Source: J061 sp003695725 [NCBI: Candidatus Schekmanbacteria bacterium]
GTDB taxonomy: Bacteria > Schekmanbacteria > GWA2-38-11
Length of the DNA stretch: 17,281 bases
Direction of reading: 5' to 3'
NCBI GenBank assembly: GCA_003695725.1
Contig: RFHX01000162.1
Span: 1 to 17,281, forward strand
The position numbers were made by a program, and so were the translations under genes. Shown here in pieces: positions 99 through 17,118 of the stretch. Each line of letters begins with the position of its first letter. The first letter of the stretch is position 1. Below the pieces are notes generated by a model. It worked only from the letters and a program-made list of their open reading frames with translations, was not told the origin of the DNA and did not search any database.

Positions 99-103
99 GG
101 AAG

Positions 104-138
104 AAGGGGTCAAGTCTGCTTTTGGCTTTTCTCTATTG
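104..138 (+). repeat. Left arm of an inverted repeat
   Basis: The first 27 bases (104-130) are an exact reverse complement of 822-848. A further CTATTG at 133-138 matches 816-821 after a 2-base indel. The arm starts with GGGGTCAAGTCTGC and continues into T-rich sequence. It begins 5 bp after a possible stop codon at 96-98. The internal sequence is not a strong self-palindrome, so it is not an ordinary hairpin terminator. It may be a dispersed extragenic repeat or the end of a small non-autonomous element. No transposase lies nearby. Confidence 0.8.
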
Positions 139-200
139 TTCCATCTATTCAGCCAAAAATCGGTGCCAATAAATTAAAAGGTACATAGAAGAACGTAAAT

Positions 201-284
201 TGCCGAAGGGGGGACTCGAACCCCCAAGGGATTGCTCCCACTAGACCCTGAACCTAGCGTGTTTGCCAATTTCACCACTTCGGC
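201..284 (-). tRNA. tRNA-Leu (anticodon CAG)
   Basis: On the minus strand this folds as a class II tRNA. The 7-bp acceptor stem GCCGAAG/CTTCGGC is followed by discriminator A at 201. The D-arm contains the A..TTGGC..A pattern, and the anticodon loop TTCAGGG gives CAG (complement of 248-250). A long variable arm with a GGGA/TCCC stem precedes a T-arm with GGGGG-TTCGAGT-CCCCC. It reads CUG leucine codons. No CCA is encoded after the discriminator, so the end must be added by tRNA nucleotidyltransferase. It stands alone with its own promoter at 311-339 and lies inside the inverted-repeat pair. Confidence 0.95.
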
Positions 285-310
285 ATTAATCTTTCATTGA
301 TTGCATAGAA

Positions 311-339
311 AAGGTAAAGATTTTTTTCTTCTTTGTCAA
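311..339 (-). promoter_or_regulatory. Sigma-70-type promoter for tRNA-Leu
   Basis: Reading the minus strand, a perfect TTGACA (complement of 334-339) is followed by a 17-bp spacer and TACCTT (complement of 311-316). The predicted start is about 20 bp upstream of the tRNA 5' end, a normal distance for a tRNA gene. The -10 box is only a partial match to TATAAT. Confidence 0.65.
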
Positions 340-815
340 CATCAGGTTCAAATAGATTTTGAGAAATTCAAAATAAACCTTTTTAATTTCTAAGTTTATT
401 ACAGCCAAATCTCCAATCTTAGCTCTGCTGGAGATGACACAATAATATTATGCAGTCCTAAATATCCGACTTCGAATAGAAAACCCAAACTGTCCTTCAA
501 AGTATGTCTTACAAGTACAAGAATTTGATTTATTCTACCTATCCTTCTTTTTAAAAAAAAGCCGAAAGCGTTGTGAAGCAAAAAGTTCCCTTTCCGAGGA
601 AGATTCCAATAAATCTGACGAGTTTAGAGTTTCAGCAAACAGATCTTTTTAGAGAAATAGGCGTTAGCTTTGTAATACCTCAAAATAACTATTTTATATT
701 TTAATCAAATAAAGTTGTTCCTCTGCTAACCTCAAAATCAATACTGTTGTGCAATGGATATAAAAAGGAAAAGAAAAAATTAACAGCATAACTATTTGAT
801 AATATTGAGAAAAAG
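340..815. other. AT-rich intergenic stretch, possibly decayed coding sequence
   Basis: No intact gene is supported here. On the minus strand a frame is open from about 632 down to the stop at 399-401. Its middle reads RRIGRINQILVLVRHTLKDS, which is loosely helical but matches no family I can name with confidence. A second minus-strand frame between about 540 and 650 also has protein-like composition before a stop, as a frameshifted remnant would show. There is no clear ribosome binding site or ATG for either. The whole stretch lies between the two inverted-repeat arms. Confidence 0.3.
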
Positions 816-2829: not shown

Positions 2830-3981
2830 TCAATCTTCATAGATGGCATCTATTACCAGTTTATCGCCTTCTGATATTTCGCCTTCTACAAGCTCTGTAT
2901 ATTGGCTGTTGCTGATACCTGTCTTTACTTCAACCCTTTTTATTTCCCTTTCTGATACAAGTTTCCAAACTCCTCTCGAAATATATTTCTTATAATTTTC
3001 ATTTCGTCTCATCTTTTCCTTTTCTTCACGAGGCATAAACCTCAAAGCGGCATTCGGTATTCTCAACACATTATCTTTTACACCGGTAGTTATGTTTACA
3101 TTCGCTGTCATCCCGGGTTTTAAAATCAAGTCCGAATTATCAACATCTATAATTACTACATAAGTGACTACATTCTGCACTGTTTGAGGAGAAATCCTTA
3201 TCTGCGATACTTTACCATTGAAGACTCTGTCTGGATAAGCATCAACAGTAAACTCTACATCTTCCCCAACTTTGACTCTCCCAATATCTGCCTCATCAAC
3301 ATTTGTTTCAATCTGCATAACAGAAAGGTCCTTTGCCGCAAGAAAAAGAGTGGGAGTTTGAAGGCTTGCCACAATGGTTTGTCCCACATCGACATTTCTC
3401 GATACGATTATTCCGTCAACTGGTGAAATGATATTTGTATATTTTAGGTTTGTTTCTGCTTCTTCAAGATTAGCTTTTTGCTGTTCAACTTGAGCACGCG
3501 AAACTTCAACTTGGGCAAGGGCAGAATCATATGCATTTTGTGCCGAATCGAGTTCCTGATCTGATGCAAAACCGGCTTCATTGAGGGCTTTTATCCTCTT
3601 GAGCTTGAGCTCAGCATCTCTCAAAAGCACTTCGTTTTTTTCAAGATTATTCTTTGCAAGCCGCAGATTGTATCTTGCCTGATCAACACGCGCCTGAAAA
3701 AGCTGTGGGTCAATTTTTGCAAGAAGCTGTCCCTTCTTGACCCTGCTGTTATAATCGACATAAATTTCACTAACCTTTCCTGACACTTGACTTCCAATTA
3801 TTACCAATGCTTTGGGATTCACAGTGCCTGTTGCAGTTACTTTTTGGATGATTTTTCCACGCGTTACAGGCGCCGTAATATACTCTACATTGTATTCCTT
3901 CGGCGGCTTAAAAAAATAATAAGCGCCTACTAGTACTGCTAAGGCAATAATCAAACTGAACAAAAGCGTTTTCCTTTTCAT
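2830..3981 (-). CDS. macA: MacA-like periplasmic adaptor (HlyD/RND membrane fusion protein)
   Basis: This 383-residue adaptor bridges an inner-membrane transporter and an outer-membrane TolC-like channel. A signal anchor spans residues 5-24. The first lipoyl half is near 60-92 (GSQVSGKVSEIYV..). A coiled-coil hairpin covers about 93-180, rich in Ala, Gln, Glu and Leu, and the second lipoyl half is at 184-205 (ISPVDGIIVSRNVDVGQTI). A beta-barrel follows at about 215-300, then a membrane-proximal domain. A charged stretch (318-336, PREEKEKMRRNENYKKY..) is inserted just after the RIPNAALRF phrase. I chose the ATG at 3981, which has AGGAG 10 bases upstream. A TTG one codon earlier is an alternative. 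It is first in the macA-ATPase-permease operon. No TolC homologue is in the window. Confidence 0.93.
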   Translation of the reverse strand: MKRKTLLFSLIIALAVLVGAYYFFKPPKEYNVEYITAPVTRGKIIQKVTATGTVNPKALVIIGSQVSGKVSEIYVDYNSRVKKGQLLAKIDPQLFQARVDQARYNLRLAKNNLEKNEVLLRDAELKLKRIKALNEAGFASDQELDSAQNAYDSALAQVEVSRAQVEQQKANLEEAETNLKYTNIISPVDGIIVSRNVDVGQTIVASLQTPTLFLAAKDLSVMQIETNVDEADIGRVKVGEDVEFTVDAYPDRVFNGKVSQIRISPQTVQNVVTYVVIIDVDNSDLILKPGMTANVNITTGVKDNVLRIPNAALRFMPREEKEKMRRNENYKKYISRGVWKLVSEREIKRVEVKTGISNSQYTELVEGEISEGDKLVIDAIYED

Positions 3982-4069
3982 CAATTAAAATCTCCTAATC
4001 ATTAAAAAATGCAAATAAATAATTTTAACAACAATCCGAAAATGCAATATTCATCTGCTTAAACAAAAA

Positions 4070-4306: not shown

Positions 4307-4960
4307 TTATAGTTTTTTCAATTTATCAAGGTCTTCATCTCTACCAAGAAGTATAAGAATATCGCTGTCTTTAATAACAAAGGATGCAGGAGGGATAAGA
4401 TTAAACCTTTCAGGGACAACTTCTTTGATGGCAATTATCTGCACATTATACTTAGCCCTTACATCGAGCTCCTTTATACTTTTGCCTATGAATGCTTTTG
4501 GAGCTCCAAGCTCAATCACACTATAACCCGTTGCAAGCTCCAAACTGTCAAGCACTCCGGGAAAACTTAAACTGTTGGCGACATTGATTCCCATATCCCT
4601 TTCAGGGAATAGGACCTGCTTTGCGCCAATTAGAGAGACGACTTTCCCATGTGCTTCATTCTGCACGCGTACGACTATCTCTTTACAGCCAAGTTCCTTC
4701 AAGTAAAGAGTTGTCAAGATGCTTTTGCTCAAATCACTTCCAATTGTCAGCACGACGACATCCATCTTGTTTAGTTCAAGGCCTTCAAGGACTTCTTTGT
4801 TGCTGGCATCAGCAACGATGGCATGAGATACTTCATCCTTTATGCTTTCAATTTTAGTCCTGTTGTAATCGATTACTGTCACTTCACAGCCATTCTTCAT
4901 AAGCTGAAGCGCAGCATGATATCCAAAATCACTCAATCCTATAACTGCAATGTGTCTCAT
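4307..4960 (-). CDS. ktrA: TrkA/KtrA-type potassium uptake regulator
   Basis: This 217-residue cytoplasmic gating subunit partners a Trk/Ktr channel. An N-terminal RCK (Rossmann) domain covers about 1-135 and a RCK_C domain about 142-217. The nucleotide loop reads GLSDFG (8-13). The usual motif is GxGxxG, so the middle glycine is serine here. Asp31 at the end of beta-2 (VIDYNR) is the residue expected to bind the NAD(H) or adenosine ribose. Length fits single-RCK KtrA (about 220) rather than double-domain TrkA (about 458). The ATG follows the channel stop by 12 bp, with AGGG and AGAGAG upstream, so the two are co-transcribed and probably co-translated. Confidence 0.92.
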   Translation of the reverse strand: MRHIAVIGLSDFGYHAALQLMKNGCEVTVIDYNRTKIESIKDEVSHAIVADASNKEVLEGLELNKMDVVVLTIGSDLSKSILTTLYLKELGCKEIVVRVQNEAHGKVVSLIGAKQVLFPERDMGINVANSLSFPGVLDSLELATGYSVIELGAPKAFIGKSIKELDVRAKYNVQIIAIKEVVPERFNLIPPASFVIKDSDILILLGRDEDLDKLKKL

Positions 4961-4972
4961 CTCTCTAAATCC

Positions 4973-6319
4973 CTATCCAATCATAACATCTTCGTCAGGG
5001 TAAGATATCTTAGACCTTTTAACTCTCTCACTTAAAACAACGGCAAGAGTTAGAGGACCTATCCTTCCCAAAAACATTGTCAATATTATTAACAGTTTCC
5101 CTGCGTATGTCAATTGCGGAGTGATGCCCACCGACAAACCTACTGTGCCAAAGGCGCTGACAGTCTCAAAAAAAACATCAAATATCCGCCCTTCACTTCC
5201 ACGATGCGGAATACCGCCATACTCCGAGATCGTAACAAGCATAGTAATAATGACAATCAGGACCATCCCCAATATTACGAGAGTCAAAACCTTATTGATG
5301 GATGATTGTTTTATTCGCCTTTCATACAAAAGCACAGAATCTTCCCCGCGAATCTTCGAAATAGCTGAAAAAAGAAGAATCCCGAAAGAAGTGGTTTTTA
5401 TGCCTCCTCCTGTAGAGCCCGGTGATGCACCAATAAACATCAATATTACAAACAAAAAAAGAGTGGAATCAGTCAAAGATGACATGTCAACTGTATTGAA
5501 TCCTGCAGTGCGCGGTGTTATCGATTGAAACAAAGATAAAAGAACTTTGTCATAGAAAGGCAAACCTTTCAAAACATTTGACCATTCAAAAACCATAAAT
5601 CCCATAAAGCCAATTATTAGAAGCCAAAGCGTAATTGTCAGTACGAGTTTTGTATGAAGCGAAAATTTCCTAAATCTGAAGTCTTTCAATGAAACAATCT
5701 TCTCATAAAGTTCATAAATTACAAAAAAACCAATTCCTCCAAGAAAAATAAGAGCGCATATTACAACATTTATGATTGGGTCGAACCGGTAAGAGATAAA
5801 GCTCTCTTTAAATAAACTGAAACCTGCATTACAGAAAGCTGAAATAGAATGAAAGAATGAATACCAAAGGGCATCAAAAAAAGGGTAATCACTCTGCCAT
5901 CTCAAAAAAAGAAGGATAGCGCCTGCAAGCTCTATTATAGCTGTGTATATCGCAATAGTCTTCAACACACCTCCAATCTTGACTTTACTGCCGGGCGTAT
6001 AACTCATTCTTGAAACTTCTCTCATCTCATAGTTTGCCCTCTGCCCAAAGGCAAAGATATATACAGCAGAAAATGTTACTATTCCCAATCCACCTGCCTG
6101 AATAAGAAGAAGAATCACAAGCTGACTAATAAATGGGAAGTCTGCGCCAGTATTCAATACCACAAGGCCTGTCACACATGATGCCGATGTAGCAGTAAAT
6201 AAGCTGTCAACAAACGATATATCTTTGCCAAAGGAATTTGTCAGAAAAAAGAGCGAAAGGGTCCCTATTCCTATGAGGAAAATAAAAAAAATTATTATTA
6301 TTCTTGAAGGTGTCAGCAT
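4973..6319 (-). CDS. ktrB: TrkH/KtrB-type potassium channel subunit
   Basis: This is an inner-membrane K+ (or Na+-coupled K+) uptake protein of 448 residues from the ATG at 6319. A TTG start at 6337 would add six residues, and neither start has a good ribosome site. It has four membrane-pore-membrane repeats. The selectivity-filter glycines are at G51 (CVTGLV), G166 (FCNAGF), G273 (PRTAGF) and G394 (GTVGLS). The family signature GASPGSTGGGIKTT spans 297-310 and forms the intramembrane gate region. Length matches KtrB better than TrkH. Its regulator ktrA follows 12 bp downstream, and a strong promoter lies at 6357-6386. All four filter glycines favour K+ selectivity. Confidence 0.94.
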   Translation of the reverse strand: MLTPSRIIIIFFIFLIGIGTLSLFFLTNSFGKDISFVDSLFTATSASCVTGLVVLNTGADFPFISQLVILLLIQAGGLGIVTFSAVYIFAFGQRANYEMREVSRMSYTPGSKVKIGGVLKTIAIYTAIIELAGAILLFLRWQSDYPFFDALWYSFFHSISAFCNAGFSLFKESFISYRFDPIINVVICALIFLGGIGFFVIYELYEKIVSLKDFRFRKFSLHTKLVLTITLWLLIIGFMGFMVFEWSNVLKGLPFYDKVLLSLFQSITPRTAGFNTVDMSSLTDSTLFLFVILMFIGASPGSTGGGIKTTSFGILLFSAISKIRGEDSVLLYERRIKQSSINKVLTLVILGMVLIVIITMLVTISEYGGIPHRGSEGRIFDVFFETVSAFGTVGLSVGITPQLTYAGKLLIILTMFLGRIGPLTLAVVLSERVKRSKISYPDEDVMIG

Positions 6320-6356
6320 AGTTTTTCTATTTTCCAATAATTTTTAAAAATGCACT

Positions 6357-9239: not shown

Positions 9240-10529
9240 TTATCGACCTTGAAATAAAGAGGCAAGATAATCCATAGAAGGCGGATAAAAAATGCCTAAA
9301 AGAAGAAGAAATGTCAAAACAATCAAAATTGAAGCAGTTATTATTGAGAGAATATTCTGTCCCAATGTATTGACATTTTCTCCCATTATGGATTTATCGT
9401 TTATCAATTTGAGCATTAGAATCAGAATAATAGGAAGTAGTATCCCATTTACTGTCTGAGATATCAGCATAACCATAATAAGTTTTAAATTTGGAATTAA
9501 AATAAAGCCTGCACCAATAGCAAGAATTACCGTATAAAACCAAAAAAACTTTGGAGCTGAATGAAATTTTTTGCCCAATCCGGATTCCCATCCAAATGCT
9601 TCACTTACTGCATAGGATGTAGAAAGAGGCAGAATAATGGCGCCAAGCACAGATGCATTCAGTAATCCAATAGAAAAAAGGATAAAGGCGTAATTGCCAG
9701 CCAAAGGTTTGAGGGCAAGGGCAGCTTGAAAAGCATCATTGACTTCCCGATTACCGTTAGCATATAGGGTGGCTGCAGCTGCAATAATAATAAACATTGC
9801 AACGAAATCTGTTATAAAAGACCCAATATAGACATCCCATTTCAAAAACTTGTAATTTTCCTTCTTCAACCCCTTATCCACTACCGACGCCTGAAGATAA
9901 AACTGCATCCAAGGTGTTATCGTTGTGCCAACAAGAGCAATAAAAAGGTTTATATAACCAGTTTCAAATTTGAATGTTGGATGCACTAACCCTGCAACCA
10001 CTTCATTCCAATCCGGCTGCGCCATAAAACCTGACACAACATATGTAAAATAAATAAGACAAAAAAAGAGCATAACTCTTTCCACGGCAATATAGCTCCC
10101 CTTTATGACAATCAGCCATATTATAAGCGCCATAAGGGGAACAGAAAGAAGCCTGCTTACTCCCAAAAGTTCAAAACCAGCGGCAATACCAGCAAATTCT
10201 GCTATAGTTACAGTAAGGTTTCCTACCACCAAAAGAAGCATAGTAAAAAAGGTTGTCCTCATCGAGAATTTCTCACGAATCAAATCAGCAAGTCCCTTGC
10301 CCGTGACAACTCCCATTCTTGCAGACATCTCCTGAATTACGACTAACGCCAAAGTGGTAAGGAAAAGAGCCCAAAGGAGGCTATATCCCTCCTGCGCACC
10401 TGCAAGAGTATAGGTAGCAATGCCGCCTGCGTCATTGTCGGCGCTCGATGTAATTATTCCGGGACCAATCAGGGTAAGCAGTATCAAAAAACGCCCTAAT
10501 CCTCGTCTTTCTCTTTTTACAGCTGGCAT
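9240..10529 (-). CDS. NRAMP-family divalent metal transporter with Mg2+-type (NRMT-like) metal site
   Basis: This polytopic membrane protein (about 11 helices, 429 residues from the ATG at 10529) belongs to the NRAMP/SLC11 superfamily. The ATG has GAGG 6 bases upstream. A TTG at 10544 is a weaker alternative. Helix 1 reads SSADNDAGGIATYTLAGA, where the canonical DPGN is DAGG: the metal-ligand Asp is kept (D33) and the Asn becomes Gly. Helix 6 reads TTITPWMQFY (202-211), where canonical MPH is TPW, so the soft methionine ligand becomes T205. In classic NRAMPs that methionine disfavours Mg2+ and Ca2+, so its loss points to a hard divalent ion such as Mg2+ (my inference, matching the described NRMT group). 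It is encoded 20 bp after a soluble MgtE_N-CBS protein. NRAMP membership is sure; the substrate is inferred. Confidence 0.88.
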   Translation of the reverse strand: MPAVKRERRGLGRFLILLTLIGPGIITSSADNDAGGIATYTLAGAQEGYSLLWALFLTTLALVVIQEMSARMGVVTGKGLADLIREKFSMRTTFFTMLLLVVGNLTVTIAEFAGIAAGFELLGVSRLLSVPLMALIIWLIVIKGSYIAVERVMLFFCLIYFTYVVSGFMAQPDWNEVVAGLVHPTFKFETGYINLFIALVGTTITPWMQFYLQASVVDKGLKKENYKFLKWDVYIGSFITDFVAMFIIIAAAATLYANGNREVNDAFQAALALKPLAGNYAFILFSIGLLNASVLGAIILPLSTSYAVSEAFGWESGLGKKFHSAPKFFWFYTVILAIGAGFILIPNLKLIMVMLISQTVNGILLPIILILMLKLINDKSIMGENVNTLGQNILSIITASILIVLTFLLLLGIFYPPSMDYLASLFQGR

Positions 10530-10549
10530 TTGAATCCTCAACAAATAGT

Positions 10550-11815
10550 TTAGACTCTGAGCTTTTTCTTCCGAGAGGGAGGCGGTATGACCAAGTCAAC
10601 GATGTCATCAACAGTAATGATGCCAAGAATTACATTTTCTTCGTTTACAACAGGAATAGCATAAAAATTATATTTCGATATCATCTCTGCCACTTCTTCT
10701 TCATCTGTATCCGGCAAAACACTCTTTACCTGTTCTTTCATAATAGCTGAAAGTTGGGTATTGTCTGCTGCCAACAGAAGGTCTTTTATTGAAACAACAC
10801 CAAGCAGTTTGTCATTGTCGTCTGTAACATATATGTAATAAATCATCTCAACATCAGGAGCCATCAATCTGAGATTCTTGAATGCCTCTTTCACTGTCAT
10901 AGTGGGAGGAAAGGAAAGAAAATCCGTTGTCATCAATCCTCCTGCTGTATCATCTTCGTGTTCAAGAAGCTCCTGCACATCTTCTGCCTCTTCGTCTTCC
11001 ATCAAATTCAGTAGCTCCTGCGCTGTTTCTTCAGGCAAATCACCCAGCAAGTCTGCGGCTTCATCAGGGGGCATCAACTCCAATATATCAGATGCCTGTT
11101 CCTTATCCATTCCATGAATTATGGATACCTGCGCTTCCGGTTCAAGCTCATGGAGCGCTTCTGCCGCTGTTTCAAGTTCAAGAGTATCAAAGAGAGCAGA
11201 CCTTTCTTTTGGCGGAATTTGACTCATTATAGATGCAATGTCAGAAGGATGGAGTTCAGAAAGTTTCGATTTCGTAACTTTCAAGGTCAAACTGCTTACC
11301 TTAGGGTCAACTGGCTGTAAATAGTTCCATGATATCAGGTTTTGAGCTTTTCCTCCGCCAACCTTCTTCATCAATCCCTTGGCAATGTTAGCTACACCGA
11401 TTCGTCTGAGGATTGCGTTGAATCCTATGTCTGCTGCAATTATGCAAAGATTCCCTCTCATTTCACCCAATTTAACATCATTGACCCTAACAACTTTGGC
11501 TCCGTCTATATCAACTATCTGTTTATCAAGAATATCCTTTGCGATTGAAATATCATTTTCGCCCGGTTCAGTCTCTGTAACTTCATTCTTATAAATATTT
11601 GCCGTAATTGTGCTTCTATTGAAAAGTTCTATATTTTCGAAAGGAATGATTGCCTTCTTGCCGGACTTAATATTGACAACAAGTGCAGACACTGTTGGAA
11701 ATACATCTTTAATACGCACAAGAAGGTCTTCAAGCTTGCCTATAACCTCACCTTCCCGGTCATAGACATCCCGCCCCAATACCTCACTGGCAAATATTTC
11801 TCCCACTAAATACAT
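10550..11815 (-). CDS. PRC-barrel / MgtE_N / tandem-CBS protein lacking a membrane domain
   Basis: This 421-residue soluble protein combines a PRC-barrel-like domain (about 4-75; GRDVYDREGEVIGKLEDLLV), probably a second one (about 89-170; VVRVNDVKLGEMRG), a helical MgtE_N domain (about 183-290; LSELHPSDIASIMSQIPP) and two CBS domains (about 294-350 and 356-412). HEDDTAGGLMTTDF (286-299) is the hallmark of the MgtE N-to-CBS junction. The chain stops after CBS2 with PPPSRKKKLRV, where full-length MgtE would continue into five membrane helices. In MgtE these domains bind Mg2+ and close the pore. It is followed after 20 bp by an NRAMP-like transporter and preceded after 36 bp by era. I infer that it senses Mg2+ or nucleotide and regulates that carrier. 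Confidence 0.88.
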   Translation of the reverse strand: MYLVGEIFASEVLGRDVYDREGEVIGKLEDLLVRIKDVFPTVSALVVNIKSGKKAIIPFENIELFNRSTITANIYKNEVTETEPGENDISIAKDILDKQIVDIDGAKVVRVNDVKLGEMRGNLCIIAADIGFNAILRRIGVANIAKGLMKKVGGGKAQNLISWNYLQPVDPKVSSLTLKVTKSKLSELHPSDIASIMSQIPPKERSALFDTLELETAAEALHELEPEAQVSIIHGMDKEQASDILELMPPDEAADLLGDLPEETAQELLNLMEDEEAEDVQELLEHEDDTAGGLMTTDFLSFPPTMTVKEAFKNLRLMAPDVEMIYYIYVTDDNDKLLGVVSIKDLLLAADNTQLSAIMKEQVKSVLPDTDEEEVAEMISKYNFYAIPVVNEENVILGIITVDDIVDLVIPPPSRKKKLRV

Positions 11816-11851: not shown

Positions 11852-12778
11852 TCAATTTTCATCAGAGGTATAGCCATATTTATGAAGTAATTTTTCATTC
11901 TCTGTCCATTTTTTTTTAACATATACTCTCAAGTCAAGATAAACTTTGCACCCTGTAAAATATTCAATATCCTTTCGCGCTCTACTGCCTATTTCTTTTA
12001 TCATTTCTCCCTTTTTGCCAATGATGATACCCTTTTGTGATTCTTTTTCAACAAATATATTTGCTGATACATAAATAAGGCCTTCTTTGCGCTCTTTTAT
12101 CTCTTCGACCTCCACATGGACACAATAGGGCAATTCCTCCTGCAAAAGACGATAAATCTTTTCACGAATATATTCAGCAAAAAGGAATTCTTCAGGACGA
12201 TCTGTAATTATATCCGCTTCAAAATACCTTGGCGCAATTGGCAGATTATCAACGACTACGGAAATAAGCCTTTTGAGATTAGTCCCGCGTTTTGCTGAAA
12301 TTGGGATAAATTCTTCGATAAACTCATATTTTTTCAAAGAATCGATTAGAGGCAAAAGCTCTTCTTTTTTTAAAAGGTCGATTTTGTTGATTAGAAGGAT
12401 TTTCATTGCATCAACCTTTTCAATCTTATCCAAGATTACAATATCATCTTTCTTTATACCTGCTTTTGCATCTATGATAAAGAGCACTATATCTGCATAA
12501 TTTAGAGTGCTTAAGGCAATCTTGACAAGATGGCTTCTCATCAATCCCTTCTTGACATTTATACCCGGAGTATCAAGAAAGATTGCCTGATAGTCTTCCC
12601 CATTCAGGATTCCTGTTATCCTGTTTCTCGTAGTTTGAGGTTTTGCAGAAGTGATTGCAATTTTAGTGTCTAAGATTCTATTCAGTAGAGTTGACTTTCC
12701 CGTATTAGGACGCCCTACCAAGGCAATAAAACCACATCTAAATTCTCTGCCTTCCCCTTCAAAATTATTTTCAGCCAT
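11852..12778 (-). CDS. era: GTPase Era
   Basis: This essential GTPase binds the 3' end of 16S rRNA and assists 30S subunit assembly. The 308 residues fit the family length of about 300. GTPase motifs are G1 GRPNTGKS (22-29), G2 region around PQTTRNRITG (47-56), G3 DTPG (69-72), G4 NKID (131-134) and G5 SAK (161-163). The C-terminal KH RNA-binding domain carries GIIIGKKGEMIKEIG (250-264). The short acidic N-terminus before residue 15 is not conserved. It leads the minus-strand group that continues into the PRC/MgtE_N/CBS gene 36 bp downstream. No strong ribosome site precedes the ATG. Confidence 0.97.
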   Translation of the reverse strand: MAENNFEGEGREFRCGFIALVGRPNTGKSTLLNRILDTKIAITSAKPQTTRNRITGILNGEDYQAIFLDTPGINVKKGLMRSHLVKIALSTLNYADIVLFIIDAKAGIKKDDIVILDKIEKVDAMKILLINKIDLLKKEELLPLIDSLKKYEFIEEFIPISAKRGTNLKRLISVVVDNLPIAPRYFEADIITDRPEEFLFAEYIREKIYRLLQEELPYCVHVEVEEIKERKEGLIYVSANIFVEKESQKGIIIGKKGEMIKEIGSRARKDIEYFTGCKVYLDLRVYVKKKWTENEKLLHKYGYTSDEN

Positions 12779-13369: not shown

Positions 13370-15616
13370 TCATTTTTTATCAAGAAGACGGCGGATAATT
13401 TTTCTCAACTCCTGCCAATTTGTTGGTTTCATAACAAAATGCGAAATGCCTATCTTCTTAGCTTTTTTTTCATTCATATGCTCACTAAAGCCGGTGCAGA
13501 TTATTACAGGAATATCTTTTCTGATTTTGAGTATCTCTTGCGCAAAAACATTGCCCGTCATCTTTGGCATCGTCATATCTGTGATTACCAAATCGAAAAC
13601 TTTGGGATTTTCTTCAAAAGCTTGGAGCGCCTGCATAGGGTCACTGAATGGGAATACCTTATATCCTGAAAGTTCAAGCATTCTCTTTCCTAACTCTGCA
13701 ATGCTTGGGTCATCATCAAGAAAGAGAATCTTTTCATTACCTGCCGTAGCATCCTTTTCTTCATACTTACTTTCAATCACTTTGGCTTTCTCTTTTCCTT
13801 TTTCATAAAGAGGCAAATAAATATAAAAGGCAGTGCCAATTCCCTCCTCGCTATAAACCAAAACCGCACCTCCTGCGCCGCGAACTATTCCGTGGACCAC
13901 TGAAAGACCAAGTCCTGTGCCCTTCCCTTCCTCTTTCGTCGTAAAATATGGATCGAATATTTTGTCGATAATATCACTCGGGATTCCACTGCCCGTGTCG
14001 CTTACAGTAATGAGAGAATATTTTCCTATCTTCAAATCGGGATGCACAATTTCCTCGGCGCTCTTGATTTCAGTTTCCTGAATATCAACTGTAATTACTC
14101 CACCTTCTTTACTAATTGCATGATAGGCATTTGTACATAAATTGATGATTATTTGATGGATTTCAGTCGGGTCAATATAGCAATAAATTTCTGTTGATGG
14201 AAAGTTTTTAACTATTTCAATGCTTGAAGGAATCGTTGAGCGCAAAAGCTTCAATGCTTCTTCAACAACACTTTTGATATCACAAACAACAGGCTCGCGA
14301 AGCCGTTGCCTGCTGAATGTCAAAATCTGTTTTACAAGGTCTCTTGCCCTTTCTGCCGCTTTAAGCATTTCTGTGAGCATTTCGGCATACTTGCTCTCCT
14401 GCGATACCATATTGAGCATCAAGTCGCAATAACCAATAATGGGCATCAAAATATTATTGAAATCGTGTGCTATGCCGCCTGCAAGATTTCCAATGGCTTC
14501 AAGACGTTGTGCCTGTTGAAGCTGTCTTTCAAGCTGTTTTTCTTTTGTTATATCCCTCTGCACGGATACATAATAATCGAACCCCTCCTCTTCATATCGT
14601 AAAGGAGAAATCGTTGCCGCAACTTCGTATAATGTGCCATCCTTCCTTTTGTTTATGAGAAATCCGCTCCAAGTTTCCCCTTTCGATATCTTTTCCCAAA
14701 GACTTTTGAATGACTCAGCATCACTCTTGCCACTCCCGAGGATTTCAAGTGTTTTCCCAATGACTTCATCGGATGCATAGCCTGTCGTTTTGCTGAAGCC
14801 CTTGTTGACATAGATAATTTTTCCCTCCTCATCGATTATGATTACCGATTCTTCGGCATTTTCTACTGCCGCAGAAAGGAGACGGCTTTCTCTCTCAGCC
14901 CTTACCCTTTCAGTTATATCCCTGCATATTCCTCCAATCTTCAATGAGCCATCTGCAAATTTTACGGGGAAGAGGGTATCTATATGGTATCGTTTTTCAT
15001 TTTCAGAATGGAGGAAATGTTCAAAAACAACTCGTTCTTCACTTTCAATAACCCTTTTTAGATTCTTTCTATATATTTTTGAAATTTCAGGAGGATAAAC
15101 TTCGTCAATACTTTTACCAATTAAATCATCGCTCCTATTCAACCCGAAACATTCAACTCTATCATTACTTGAAAGATAAATGCCTTCTGTCGAAAGCATA
15201 AAAATATGGTCAGACGAGGATTCTACAAGGGTGCGGTATGACAACTCGCTTCTTCTTGCGATTTCCTTCGATTGTCTTCGAAGCTTCAAGAAGGTCCTTA
15301 TCCTTGCAAGAAGTTCAATCTTTGATATGGGTTTTCTTATGCAGTCATCAAATCCGGCATCAAGCCATTTTGAACTTCCTTCATTATGTGAAAGGACTAT
15401 AAGCACAGGAAGAAAGATTTCAGGTGAATCATTCTTTTTTTGTAGAAGTTCACTTCCAATCTCTTTTCCTAAAAATTGGTCTGTTATATAAAGGTCTGCA
15501 TCTTCAATCGTATCTTTATTGTTGAAAGTATTGACGGAATAGCCGCAATTTTCAAGATATCTTTGAAGGATCTTACAATCAACCTCTTTTGAAAGATAAA
15601 TTCCTATAGTTTCCAT
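13370..15616 (-). CDS. Hybrid sensor histidine kinase (pseudo-REC / PAS / PAS / HisKA / HATPase / REC)
   Basis: This 748-residue kinase (ATG at 15616) has AAAAGG upstream at good spacing. A TTG at 15631 would add five residues. An N-terminal receiver-like domain (about 2-110) keeps D46 and K95 but lacks the acidic Mg2+ pair, reading [10 protein letters not shown]. Two PAS domains follow (about 128-236 and 247-358, each ending in an RDIT-type motif). HisKA carries GGIAHDFNN with phospho-acceptor H384. The HATPase has an N-box ([10 protein letters not shown]), DTGSGI (540-545), IFDPYFTTK and GTGLGL (566-571). A C-terminal receiver (about 629-745) is intact: acidic D634/D635, acceptor D680, T708 and K730. 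There is no membrane helix, so it is a cytoplasmic sensor. The KaiC-like gene lies 17 bp upstream in the same operon. No output regulator is in the window. Confidence 0.93.
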
Positions 15617-15633
15617 TGAATGCCTTTTCAATT

Positions 15634-17118
15634 TTATGAAATCTCGGGTTTTTTCTCCGGTGTTTCAGCAGTAGGAACTCCTGTCAACAGGCCTCTCAAG
15701 TGATCGAGTTTTTCTCCAATCAATATTCCTTTTTCAGTAATTTTATATTCTCTCAATTCGGGTTCATGATTTCCTATTCTATTCTTTAAACAGCTTATAA
15801 TCTTGATTACTTCACCGTTATATTCCGCATATCTGAGCATCAGGACGAGATCGGCGATATAGCTTACTCCTGTCTCTGTAATCTGTAGTTCACCGGTAAG
15901 CTTTTCAAGTTCATTGATAAGGAAGAGGTTTAGTTTATTCATACGGCAATAATTGATAATGTTCTGTATATGCGGCACAATATAACCAAACTGCTCCATT
16001 GCAAGATTGTATCCTCTCAAACTATCGATAACAATTAAACTGCGTTTGTTCTCCTTTACCTCATTTTTCATAGCCATCAAAAATTCATCAGGATATAGTT
16101 CAAGAGTATTGACTTCTACAATTTCTACCATATTGTTTTCAATTTTTTCTTCTACGGGAATACCTATGGCATTACATCTTTCAAGAATCGAAGATTTTCC
16201 TTCTTCAAAGGAATACAAAACGCTTTTTAATCCCTGATCTGCCGCTGAAACCAAATACTGTAATGCAAGTGTCGTCTTCCCCGTTCCCGAAGGGCCTGAG
16301 ATTAAAGTGCTGATACCTGTCTGGATGCCTCCATACAATATCTCATCGAGCTCTTTGATACCTGAAGATATCTGTTTGCGGGCATAAGCGATATGCTTAA
16401 TTTTTTCAATTATATGTGGAAAGACCTTAATCCCATTTTCGGTGATTTTCAGAGGATGGCGACCTGATATATAACTCGATCCTCTAAGTTTTGCCACCTC
16501 AAGGGAACGAATATCTATGAGTCTCCCTTCTGATACTTCTCTTCGCAGAATTACGACACCATCAACAGCAAGCGACACAGAAACATCCTTCTCTAAATCG
16601 CTGAGCTCCAAAAGCAACAAAGTTGTGCAATTTTTACTGTTTAGCCAATTTACGAGGCGTTGAATATGCTTTCTGAATTGGTATTCATCCGTAGAAAGAT
16701 AACGAAGATATGTTAGAGAATCTATTACAAGGTATTTTGGATTATTTTTATCAATTGCATCATATATCTTTTTCCATAGCGGCTCTTCTTCAACCTCACT
16801 GGGTGTAAAGATTCCATATTCATCAAATTCAGTTCCTTCCACTGCAGGCCTGAAGGTTAGATCTTCAAAGGCAATTGAATCTAAATCCCATCTGAAATCT
16901 TCTGCATTTCTTCGGATGCTTTCAACAGGTTCGGCAATACTTATAAACAAGGAGGAACCTTTCTTGCCCTTCATTTCTTTAAGCCACTGCAGAGAGAAGA
17001 TTGTTTTGCCTGTGCCGGTGGCACCCACAAGAAGATAGCAGGAAGATTGTATAAATCCGCCATTCAAAATTTCATCGACGCCTTGAATACCTGAAGGTAT
17101 GCGATTATTGTAGGACAT
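15634..17118 (-). CDS. KaiC-like double-domain RecA-family ATPase
   Basis: This 494-residue protein has two KaiC/RadA-type domains. CI (about 1-235) carries Walker A GATGTGKT (32-39) and Walker B YLVIDS (129-134). CII (about 245-475) carries Walker A GPSGTGKT (275-282) and Walker B LIVIDS (361-366). KaiC uses a Glu pair after beta-2. CII keeps both (E305, E306), whereas CI has A62-E63. Aligning the KaiC phosphosite region by eye, the Ser site is S419 and the adjacent Thr is Y420. Length resembles cyanobacterial KaiC (519), with a Pro/Glu/Lys-rich tail. A strong GGAGGGG ribosome site precedes the ATG. It is transcribed first, with the hybrid kinase following by 17 bp. There is no KaiA or KaiB, so 'KaiC-like' is safer than a clock assignment. 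Confidence 0.92.
   Translation of the reverse strand: MSYNNRIPSGIQGVDEILNGGFIQSSCYLLVGATGTGKTIFSLQWLKEMKGKKGSSLFISIAEPVESIRRNAEDFRWDLDSIAFEDLTFRPAVEGTEFDEYGIFTPSEVEEEPLWKKIYDAIDKNNPKYLVIDSLTYLRYLSTDEYQFRKHIQRLVNWLNSKNCTTLLLLELSDLEKDVSVSLAVDGVVILRREVSEGRLIDIRSLEVAKLRGSSYISGRHPLKITENGIKVFPHIIEKIKHIAYARKQISSGIKELDEILYGGIQTGISTLISGPSGTGKTTLALQYLVSAADQGLKSVLYSFEEGKSSILERCNAIGIPVEEKIENNMVEIVEVNTLELYPDEFLMAMKNEVKENKRSLIVIDSLRGYNLAMEQFGYIVPHIQNIINYCRMNKLNLFLINELEKLTGELQITETGVSYIADLVLMLRYAEYNGEVIKIISCLKNRIGNHEPELREYKITEKGILIGEKLDHLRGLLTGVPTAETPEKKPEIS

Follow-up and report, generated by a model that had tools for sequence, protein, structure and literature searches.

Importers of Mg2+ must be shut once the cell is full, and for carriers of the NRMT type, which belong to the NRAMP superfamily, no mechanism of shut-off is known to us. 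The closest described system is that of Shin et al. (2014; PMC4072509), who found a gene for an MgtE fragment, homologous to the cytoplasmic domain of that channel, in the context of most NrmT genes, directly upstream of the gene for the NRAMP-related Mg2+ transporter and sometimes under an M-box riboswitch. They proposed "cytoplasmic feedback regulation of transport" and named a chaperone role as the alternative. In a 17,281-nucleotide stretch of Candidatus Schekmanbacteria bacterium J061 sp003695725 (contig RFHX01000162.1; henceforth the window), the gene for a soluble MgtE-like protein, here called the sensor, likewise lies directly upstream of a gene for an NRMT-type carrier. This pair is a real, conserved case of the published kind. 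The preliminary description of the locus knew of no account of the mechanism of such a hybrid design, but both the gene pair and the feedback proposal were already contained in the 2014 report, and the idea of feedback regulation is therefore not new. The added detail makes the proposal testable. It comprises counts of co-occurrence and of MgtE exclusion, two PRC-type barrels in the sensor, the pattern of site retention, the loss of one Mg2+ site (Mg4) in the three scorable Acidobacteriaceae sensors, and a re-fusion of the module to an MgtE channel. The main text of Shin et al. does not contain the words "CBS", "PRC" or "barrel" (PMC4072509); later work on the MgtE-like fragment was found neither among the literature matches listed nor in passages of the later NRMT papers PMC9606685 and PMC12873925, and no paper of the literature searched links a PRC-barrel with MgtE or with "magnesium transporter". 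We lean slightly towards the view that the pair takes up Mg2+ in place of MgtE, with the sensor acting in trans as a Mg2+ feedback regulator of the NRMT.

The sensor gene (10550..11815, minus strand) encodes 421 amino acids (aa) without a membrane domain. Pfam matches identify a PRC domain at residues 5-67 (32.2 bits, cut-off 21.2), MgtE_N at residues 188-289 (98 bits), and CBS in two stretches, which agrees with the domain order first read from the translation. The MgtE_N superhelix is encoded at 10949..11254 and the CBS pair at 10586..10948, both on the minus strand. The TIGR00400 model for mgtE aligns with residues 178-409 (initial Met uncounted) at model positions 21-252 of 450 and no further, and its score of 207 bits is under the cut-off of 232.75. 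The C-terminus of the sensor is DDIVDLVIPPPSRKKKLRV, and therefore the plug helix of MgtE (E258/D259) and its membrane part are missing; the protein does stop where the MgtE channel would begin, as had been noted. The channel domain PF01769 was matched by Pfam neither in the window sensor nor in any of 62 sensors from the survey described below (alignment A2, from which the truncated L064, L070, L075 and L131 were left out), whereas MgtE_N and CBS were found in 62/62 and PRC in 57/62 (E 0.01). A broken or truncated MgtE gene was rejected as an explanation, since open reading frames (ORFs) of comparable size are found across many phyla and no member of the set matches PF01769.

An AlphaFold2 model of the sensor, built from the 62-sequence alignment, has a mean pLDDT of 87.4. 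From about residue 183 onwards the model resembles MgtE, and this part aligns with the Mg2+-bound cytosolic domain of that channel (2yvy) at Z 27.5 and rmsd 2.3 Å (238 aligned residues, 36% identity; model range given as 101..409). The N superhelix, the CBS pair and the Mg4, Mg6 and Mg7 positions are thus shared with MgtE; the sensor differs in the absence of plug helix and channel, in the replacement of D226 by Asn, and in two predicted PRC-type barrels placed in front. The first barrel (residues 1-80; 11576..11815, minus strand) is supported by the Pfam match and the predicted fold. For the second (residues 88-170, with a helical insert at 132-152; 11306..11554, minus strand) there is no further Pfam PRC stretch, and its identity as a barrel is a prediction from the modelled fold. 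When the N-terminal 176 residues were modelled alone from 56 sequences, two barrels were again predicted (pLDDT 87.2, pTM 0.81), and the top fold match was 8qzo, CdpB1/CdpB2 of Archaeoglobus fulgidus (Z 12.3, rmsd 3.0 Å, 129 aligned, residues 5-171). The models thus show two PRC-type barrels, rather than one, before the MgtE part. CdpB1/CdpB2, which we take to be PRC-barrel proteins, share the fold of this half at only 16% identity and are, to our knowledge, not part of a transport system. The VIA-align match lists consist mostly of MgtE/CBS chains when the whole model is used and mostly of barrel-1 matches when the N-terminal model is used, so that the absence of other folds from them is no evidence. 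Among the 62 sensors 15 columns are invariant, nine of them in the PRC-type half: G26 in barrel 1 and D97, Q99, D102, R110, N112, D113, R137 and R138 in barrel 2. The other six (A253, D255, L283, M295, V389 and G398) lie in the MgtE-like part. Strands 99-102 and 107-110 of barrel 2 are linked by a short turn in the model, and Q99 and R110 could be cross-strand neighbours (11486..11521, minus strand).

The carrier ORF spans 9240-10544 (minus strand) and opens at TTG 10544. The likely start is ATG 10529, which is preceded by GAGG at 10536-10539; it yields a gene at 9240..10529 that codes for 429 aa and, in agreement with the preliminary description, a gap to the sensor gene of exactly 20 bp (10530..10549, minus strand). 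Nramp PF01566 is the only Pfam match (336.6 bits), and the nearest solved structure is EleNRMT of Eggerthella lenta (7qia; 358.7 bits over 401 residues), the next PDB entry reaching 97.4. The substrate-site features compared here are those described for EleNRMT (PMC8806188). The motif DAGG in TM1 (10422..10433, minus strand; numbered from the TTG) provides D38 and G41, equivalent to D55 and G58 of EleNRMT, with Gly in place of the canonical Asn. In TM6 the motif TTITPW (9909..9926, minus strand) provides T207 (Thr for Ala), T210 (a small residue for Met) and W212, which correspond to T224, A227 and W229. The two TM6b histidine positions of the NRAMP proton path are W212 and L217, and His is absent from them; both proteins lack the α-6b histidines, and at this site they differ in that EleNRMT has Ala227 where the window carrier has Thr210. 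Equivalents of D55, G58 and T224 are present in 80/80 named NRMT loci, and the T210 position holds Thr in 28 of them and Ala in the other 52. Ten more distant NRAMP sequences, chosen by us as the canonical set, carry the canonical Asn in six, Ala in six, Met in six and His in seven. The carrier alignment (A1) was made without the carrier of G002 (L030), which has an in-frame stop; this gene and a fused gene of genome G215 (see below) contain one in-frame TGA each, either a sequencing error or a genuine stop. Judged by sequence, the carrier is NRMT-like, and the binding-site signature and the similarity disfavour a Mn2+/Fe2+ NRAMP. Domain anatomy and carrier identity together bear out the initial view that the sensory half of MgtE has been re-used beside an unrelated carrier. 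The carrier would thus be expected to move Mg2+, and to do so without proton coupling. The main text of the EleNRMT paper contains no mention of "operon", "CBS" or "PRC" (PMC8806188).

The association is conserved far beyond this genome. A scan of named genomes, restricted to the top 80 among at least 581 relatives and thus a survey of the near clade, gave 76 scorable loci (four at contig edges were left out). A sensor was present in the neighbourhood of 65 of the 76 NRMT loci: upstream on the same strand in 62, within 332 bp in 60 of these and with an intervening gene in two, and in another close arrangement in three. The sensor-bearing loci include Nitrospirota, Acidobacteriota, Thermodesulfobacteriota, Myxococcota, Omnitrophota, Bacillota, Chloroflexota, Cryosericota and others. 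Where sensor and carrier are about 1.1-1.4 kb apart, the gene between them codes for a glycosyltransferase (L100, L114) or a DEAD helicase (L145). A second survey covered 193 diverse genomes, with a full-length sensor defined as a match from model position ≤9 to ≥406 and a strong NRMT as one above 450 bits, both thresholds set by us on the listing. Both genes occurred in 21 genomes, the sensor only in two (G111, and G121, where it is fused to a channel), the carrier only in two (G014, G162) and neither in 168 (Fisher p 1e-23, kinship ignored). In 19 of the 21 the genes lie within 1.5 kb. The order is sensor then carrier within 200 bp in 15 genomes, whereas G158 has an intervening gene (1.4 kb), G183 a convergent arrangement, and G023 and G170, of one family, the carrier first; in G012 and G045 the genes are on separate contigs. 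Chance adjacency was rejected on these counts, and the pairing is not a peculiarity of this genome. One genome contains four NRMT-like carriers (G129:C1; 242-461 bits) and a single sensor that adjoins one of them. In G111 a DUF1003 protein is encoded immediately after a divergent PRC-MgtE_N-CBS protein (L144, 4087-6073) and might serve the module as a third effector; neither a strong NRMT nor an MgtE channel match was found in G111.

The distribution of other Mg2+ transporters suggests what the pair may do. The MgtE channel domain was detected in 122 of the 193 genomes at E 0.001 (121 above the family cut-off), but in only 1/21 paired genomes (G090) against 121/172 others (p 4e-9, uncorrected). 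CorA is unaffected (12/21 paired and 92/172 other genomes), and replacement of CorA by the pair was accordingly rejected. Because MgtE is rare in paired genomes and CorA is not, the pair seems to take the place of MgtE in particular, and it may be an MgtE substitute in many bacteria. The host genome of the window (97.8% complete) contains one NRAMP gene, and no PF01769 match, no CorA and no MgtA above cut-off (best 52.8 versus 610.75 bits) were found in it, which suggests that the pair is important for Mg2+ import in this organism; importer kinds beyond MgtE, CorA and MgtA were not sought. Two further weak MgtE_N matches lie in the same genome, both on one contig (G000:C89:247-426 and 3849-4049).

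Closure of MgtE involves the sites Mg2 (E258), Mg3 (D259), Mg4 (D91/D247), Mg5 (D226/D250), Mg6 (D95) and Mg7 (E59) (PMC5882242). The expectation that acidic ligands would persist at the MgtE_N/CBS interface held in part: five of six positions of the window sensor are occupied, by E219 (Mg7), D251 and D404 (Mg4), D255 (Mg6) and D407 (Mg5), whereas D226 of Mg5 is replaced by N383, and E258 and D259 are lost together with the plug helix. Among all 65 sensors D95 is Asp in 63 (two gaps), D91 in 52 and D247 in 54, and E59 is Glu or Asp in 53. At Mg5, D226 is Asp in only six and Asn in 39; D250 is Asp in 31 and Glu in 12. Thirteen MgtE controls retain D91 in 13, D250 in 13, D247 in 12, D226 in 11, D95 in nine and E59 as Glu or Asp in ten. 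Thus, by this alignment, most sensors keep Mg4, Mg6 and Mg7; Mg5 and the plug-helix sites have largely disappeared. Loss of Mg5 is consistent with the missing plug helix, and the retained Mg4 would now bridge only the N domain and CBS. The two Mg4 ligands disappear jointly: of 63 scorable loci, 11 have lost both and none has lost only one. These 11 are seven Syntrophaceae or relatives with S/N, one Rhodanobacteraceae bin with G/N and, with A or G plus Q, two Acidobacteriaceae and a Granulicella. Over 104 modules, including the 11 fused proteins described below, both are kept in 85 and both lost in 14.

The CBS domain of MgtE also binds ATP (PMC5529423), and the CBS pair of the sensor might instead read ATP, AMP or another nucleotide and tune the carrier to the energy state, Mg2+ being secondary. 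Four ATP-site positions, Y170, R187 (as Lys), D188 and F227, correspond to Y327, K344, D345 and F384 in the window sensor, which speaks for this possibility. The adenine-contacting N203, by comparison, is K360 in the window and Asn in only 3/65 sensors, and F227 is Leu in 47/65. This counterevidence is weak, as the MgtE controls vary too (N203 is Asn in 5/13, F227 is Phe in 4/13); conservation of the ATP site is unconvincing in the sensors and likewise in the controls. The retention of D95 and, in most sensors, of D91 and D247 points to Mg2+, and we consider a primarily nucleotide-reading sensor quite improbable.

M-boxes (RF00380), scanned in 43 of the 65 sensor loci, precede the sensor gene in 11. 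They occur in 0/11 loci with Mg4 lost and in 11/32 with Mg4 kept (two-sided p 0.041, uncorrected); the one in L097 is incomplete because the contig ends within it. The Geobacter pair at L098 combines an M-box with a retained Mg4. A Pelosinus bin carries two M-boxes in tandem before its sensor-NRMT pair (L134, 4019-4508), and in three Syntrophaceae loci (L077, L081, L136) PyrR binding-site matches lie on the minus strand just upstream of the sensor gene and divergent from it.

These data can be combined into a mechanism. The NRMT-type carrier would take up Mg2+ without proton coupling, while the sensor would be held at its cytosolic face by the two PRC-type barrels. At high cytosolic Mg2+, perhaps together with ATP, the MgtE_N superhelix would close onto the CBS dimer via the retained Mg4, Mg6 and Mg7 sites, and the closed sensor would slow uptake. 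At low Mg2+ the sensor would open and the carrier would be released. Observed are the anatomy, the pairing, the near-absence of MgtE channels from paired genomes and the selective retention of site residues; we infer that the substrate is Mg2+, that sensor and carrier touch directly, that the barrels make this contact, and that its effect is inhibitory.

A natural rearrangement of the module bears on this proposal. In G121 an ORF of about 624 aa (L143, 3300-5171, plus strand) fuses the double PRC-type barrel and MgtE_N-CBS to an MgtE channel, which Pfam identifies on the 618-aa protein. Of 39 genomes of the phylum of G121, 22 encode the full-length module; 12, which belong to a single family, have it in ORFs of 624-658 aa and ten in ORFs of 429-473 aa. 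In the other fused proteins the channel was deduced from ORF length and, for four, from sequence letters. An NRMT adjoins all ten short-ORF modules, and none was found in the available flanks, short in several cases, of the 11 fused loci (L143, L170-L179); G215, one of the 12 fused genomes, was left out of residue counts owing to its TGA. A tree built on MgtE_N-CBS unites the 11 fused rows in one clade (SH-aLRT 99), sister to six detached sensors of the same phylum (99), and separates all of these from MgtE, on the side of the sensors (97). This is a quick LG+G4 tree with SH-aLRT values and no bootstrap, in which one long-branch MgtE, M_L025, is misplaced; the 104-row tree used for residue patterns omits the duplicates R_L007 and R_L008, the MgtE rows and rows of fewer than 281 residues. 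Since the fused clade is nested within detached sensors, the fusion looks derived and the result of a single event, and the fused form is disfavoured as the ancestor of the detached sensor. Residue identities suggest a crossover near the end of CBS2.

In all 11 fused proteins D226 and D250 are Asp, and Q99 and R110 are gone. Of the 104 modules, 89 keep both Q99 and R110 and 15 lack both, with no discordant case; those that lack them are the 11 fused modules, three with reversed gene order (L013, L160, L180) and L144. In the reversed-order clade (L160, L180, L013/L038; G170, G203, G023), where the carrier comes first, the sensor lacks Q99, R110 and D91 and keeps D247. As the two residues are possibly cross-strand neighbours, their joint loss may have a structural cause as well as lost docking. 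A bolder reading, which we put forward tentatively and on balance doubt, is that one module serves two unrelated transporters: in trans it would use the Q99/R110 face of its second barrel to dock on an NRAMP-fold carrier and would inhibit it by closure of Mg4, Mg6 and Mg7, and in cis it would act on an MgtE channel, with a degenerate Q99/R110 face and with the plug-helix lock (Mg5) in place. If true, an NRAMP-fold carrier would be gated by cytosolic metal feedback.

Several observations weigh against Mg2+ feedback as the function of the sensor. The NrmT of Acidobacterium capsulatum gave full Mn2+ rescue and only partial or weak Mg2+ rescue, and in the one published co-expression test known to us its fragment (Acp2976) did not improve the latter (PMC4072509). 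The authors suggested a Mn2+-responsive fragment. The pair may accordingly import Mn2+, alone or with Mg2+, and the sensor may answer Mn2+ or another divalent ion. EleNRMT carries Mn2+ as well (PMC8806188), and both Mg4 ligands are missing in all three scorable sensors of the Acidobacteriaceae type (L100, L120, L127). Acidobacteriaceae is the family of A. capsulatum, with Granulicella as another member. The window sensor differs from these three in retaining both Mg4 ligands. In the scanned loci M-boxes precede only sensors that keep Mg4, though the window has none, and both the near-absence of MgtE from paired genomes and the failure to find an MgtE channel, CorA or MgtA in the host speak for Mg2+. 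We therefore regard a Mn2+ system as unlikely here. Should one module indeed serve two machines, and should the A. capsulatum fragment lack Mg4 like its relatives, the published null result could be explained. Moreover, a lack of better rescue does not, in our view, probe whether uptake is inhibited at high Mg2+, the effect to be expected of a feedback regulator.

The residue patterns and the genomic context have further weak points on the same side. Only three Acidobacteriaceae loci could be scored for Mg4, and a fourth, L131, retains D247 (D91 not scorable); among Acidobacteriota sensors D91 is kept in 8/12 and D247 in 9/12, so that most keep the site. At D91/D247 five of the 104 modules are discordant. 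On the tree this pattern amounts to about four changes and the Q99/R110 pattern to about three, and in neither case can a sign test reach 0.05. Some members of the set of Shin et al. have an M-box (PMC4072509), whereas none was detected in the window at the gathering score of RF00380. CorA is present in the relatives G001 and G002, and its absence from the host genome may therefore stem from a gap in the assembly or from recent loss. In 11/76 NRMT loci no sensor lies nearby (locus neighbourhood only), and the metal sites of these carriers look the same as in paired ones; only A39 among the carrier residues passed our own thresholds for separating NRMTs with and without a sensor, and nothing usable resulted.

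The NRMTs of Clostridium acetobutylicum and E. lenta transport when assayed without the fragment (PMC4072509, PMC8806188), which is therefore not required for transport. This would also be expected if the sensor never contacts the carrier and is a Mg2+ buffer or chaperone, or serves another target, and is merely co-expressed. The chaperone role named by Shin et al. and the separate contigs of the two genes in G012 and G045 are in line with such a function. Joint function is argued for, by contrast, by the co-occurrence in 21 genomes against two and two with either gene only, and by the short distance (≤332 bp) of 60 of the 62 upstream sensors. The concentration of invariant columns in the PRC-type half, two of which change where the partner is altered, and the attachment of the same module in cis to an MgtE channel point in the same direction, and a sensor that does not contact its carrier appears improbable to us. 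The residue patterns found here translate the proposal of 2014 into specific, testable mutants and point to better test species.

Upstream of the sensor gene of the window and on the same strand, at a distance of 36 bp, lies a GTPase gene with a KH domain (11852..12778, minus strand), presumably Era-like; it is possibly co-transcribed with the sensor gene and probably stands outside the sensor-carrier system. TrkA/TrkH-type K+ uptake genes (4307-6337, minus strand) are located about 3 kb from the pair. At 13370-17118 (minus strand) a gene for a double KaiC-type ATPase is found 2 bp before a large ORF which, judged by eye only, resembles a PAS-type sensor kinase with receiver domains. Sensor loci L100, L114, L120, L127, L137 and L141 were removed from alignment A2 to give alignment A3.

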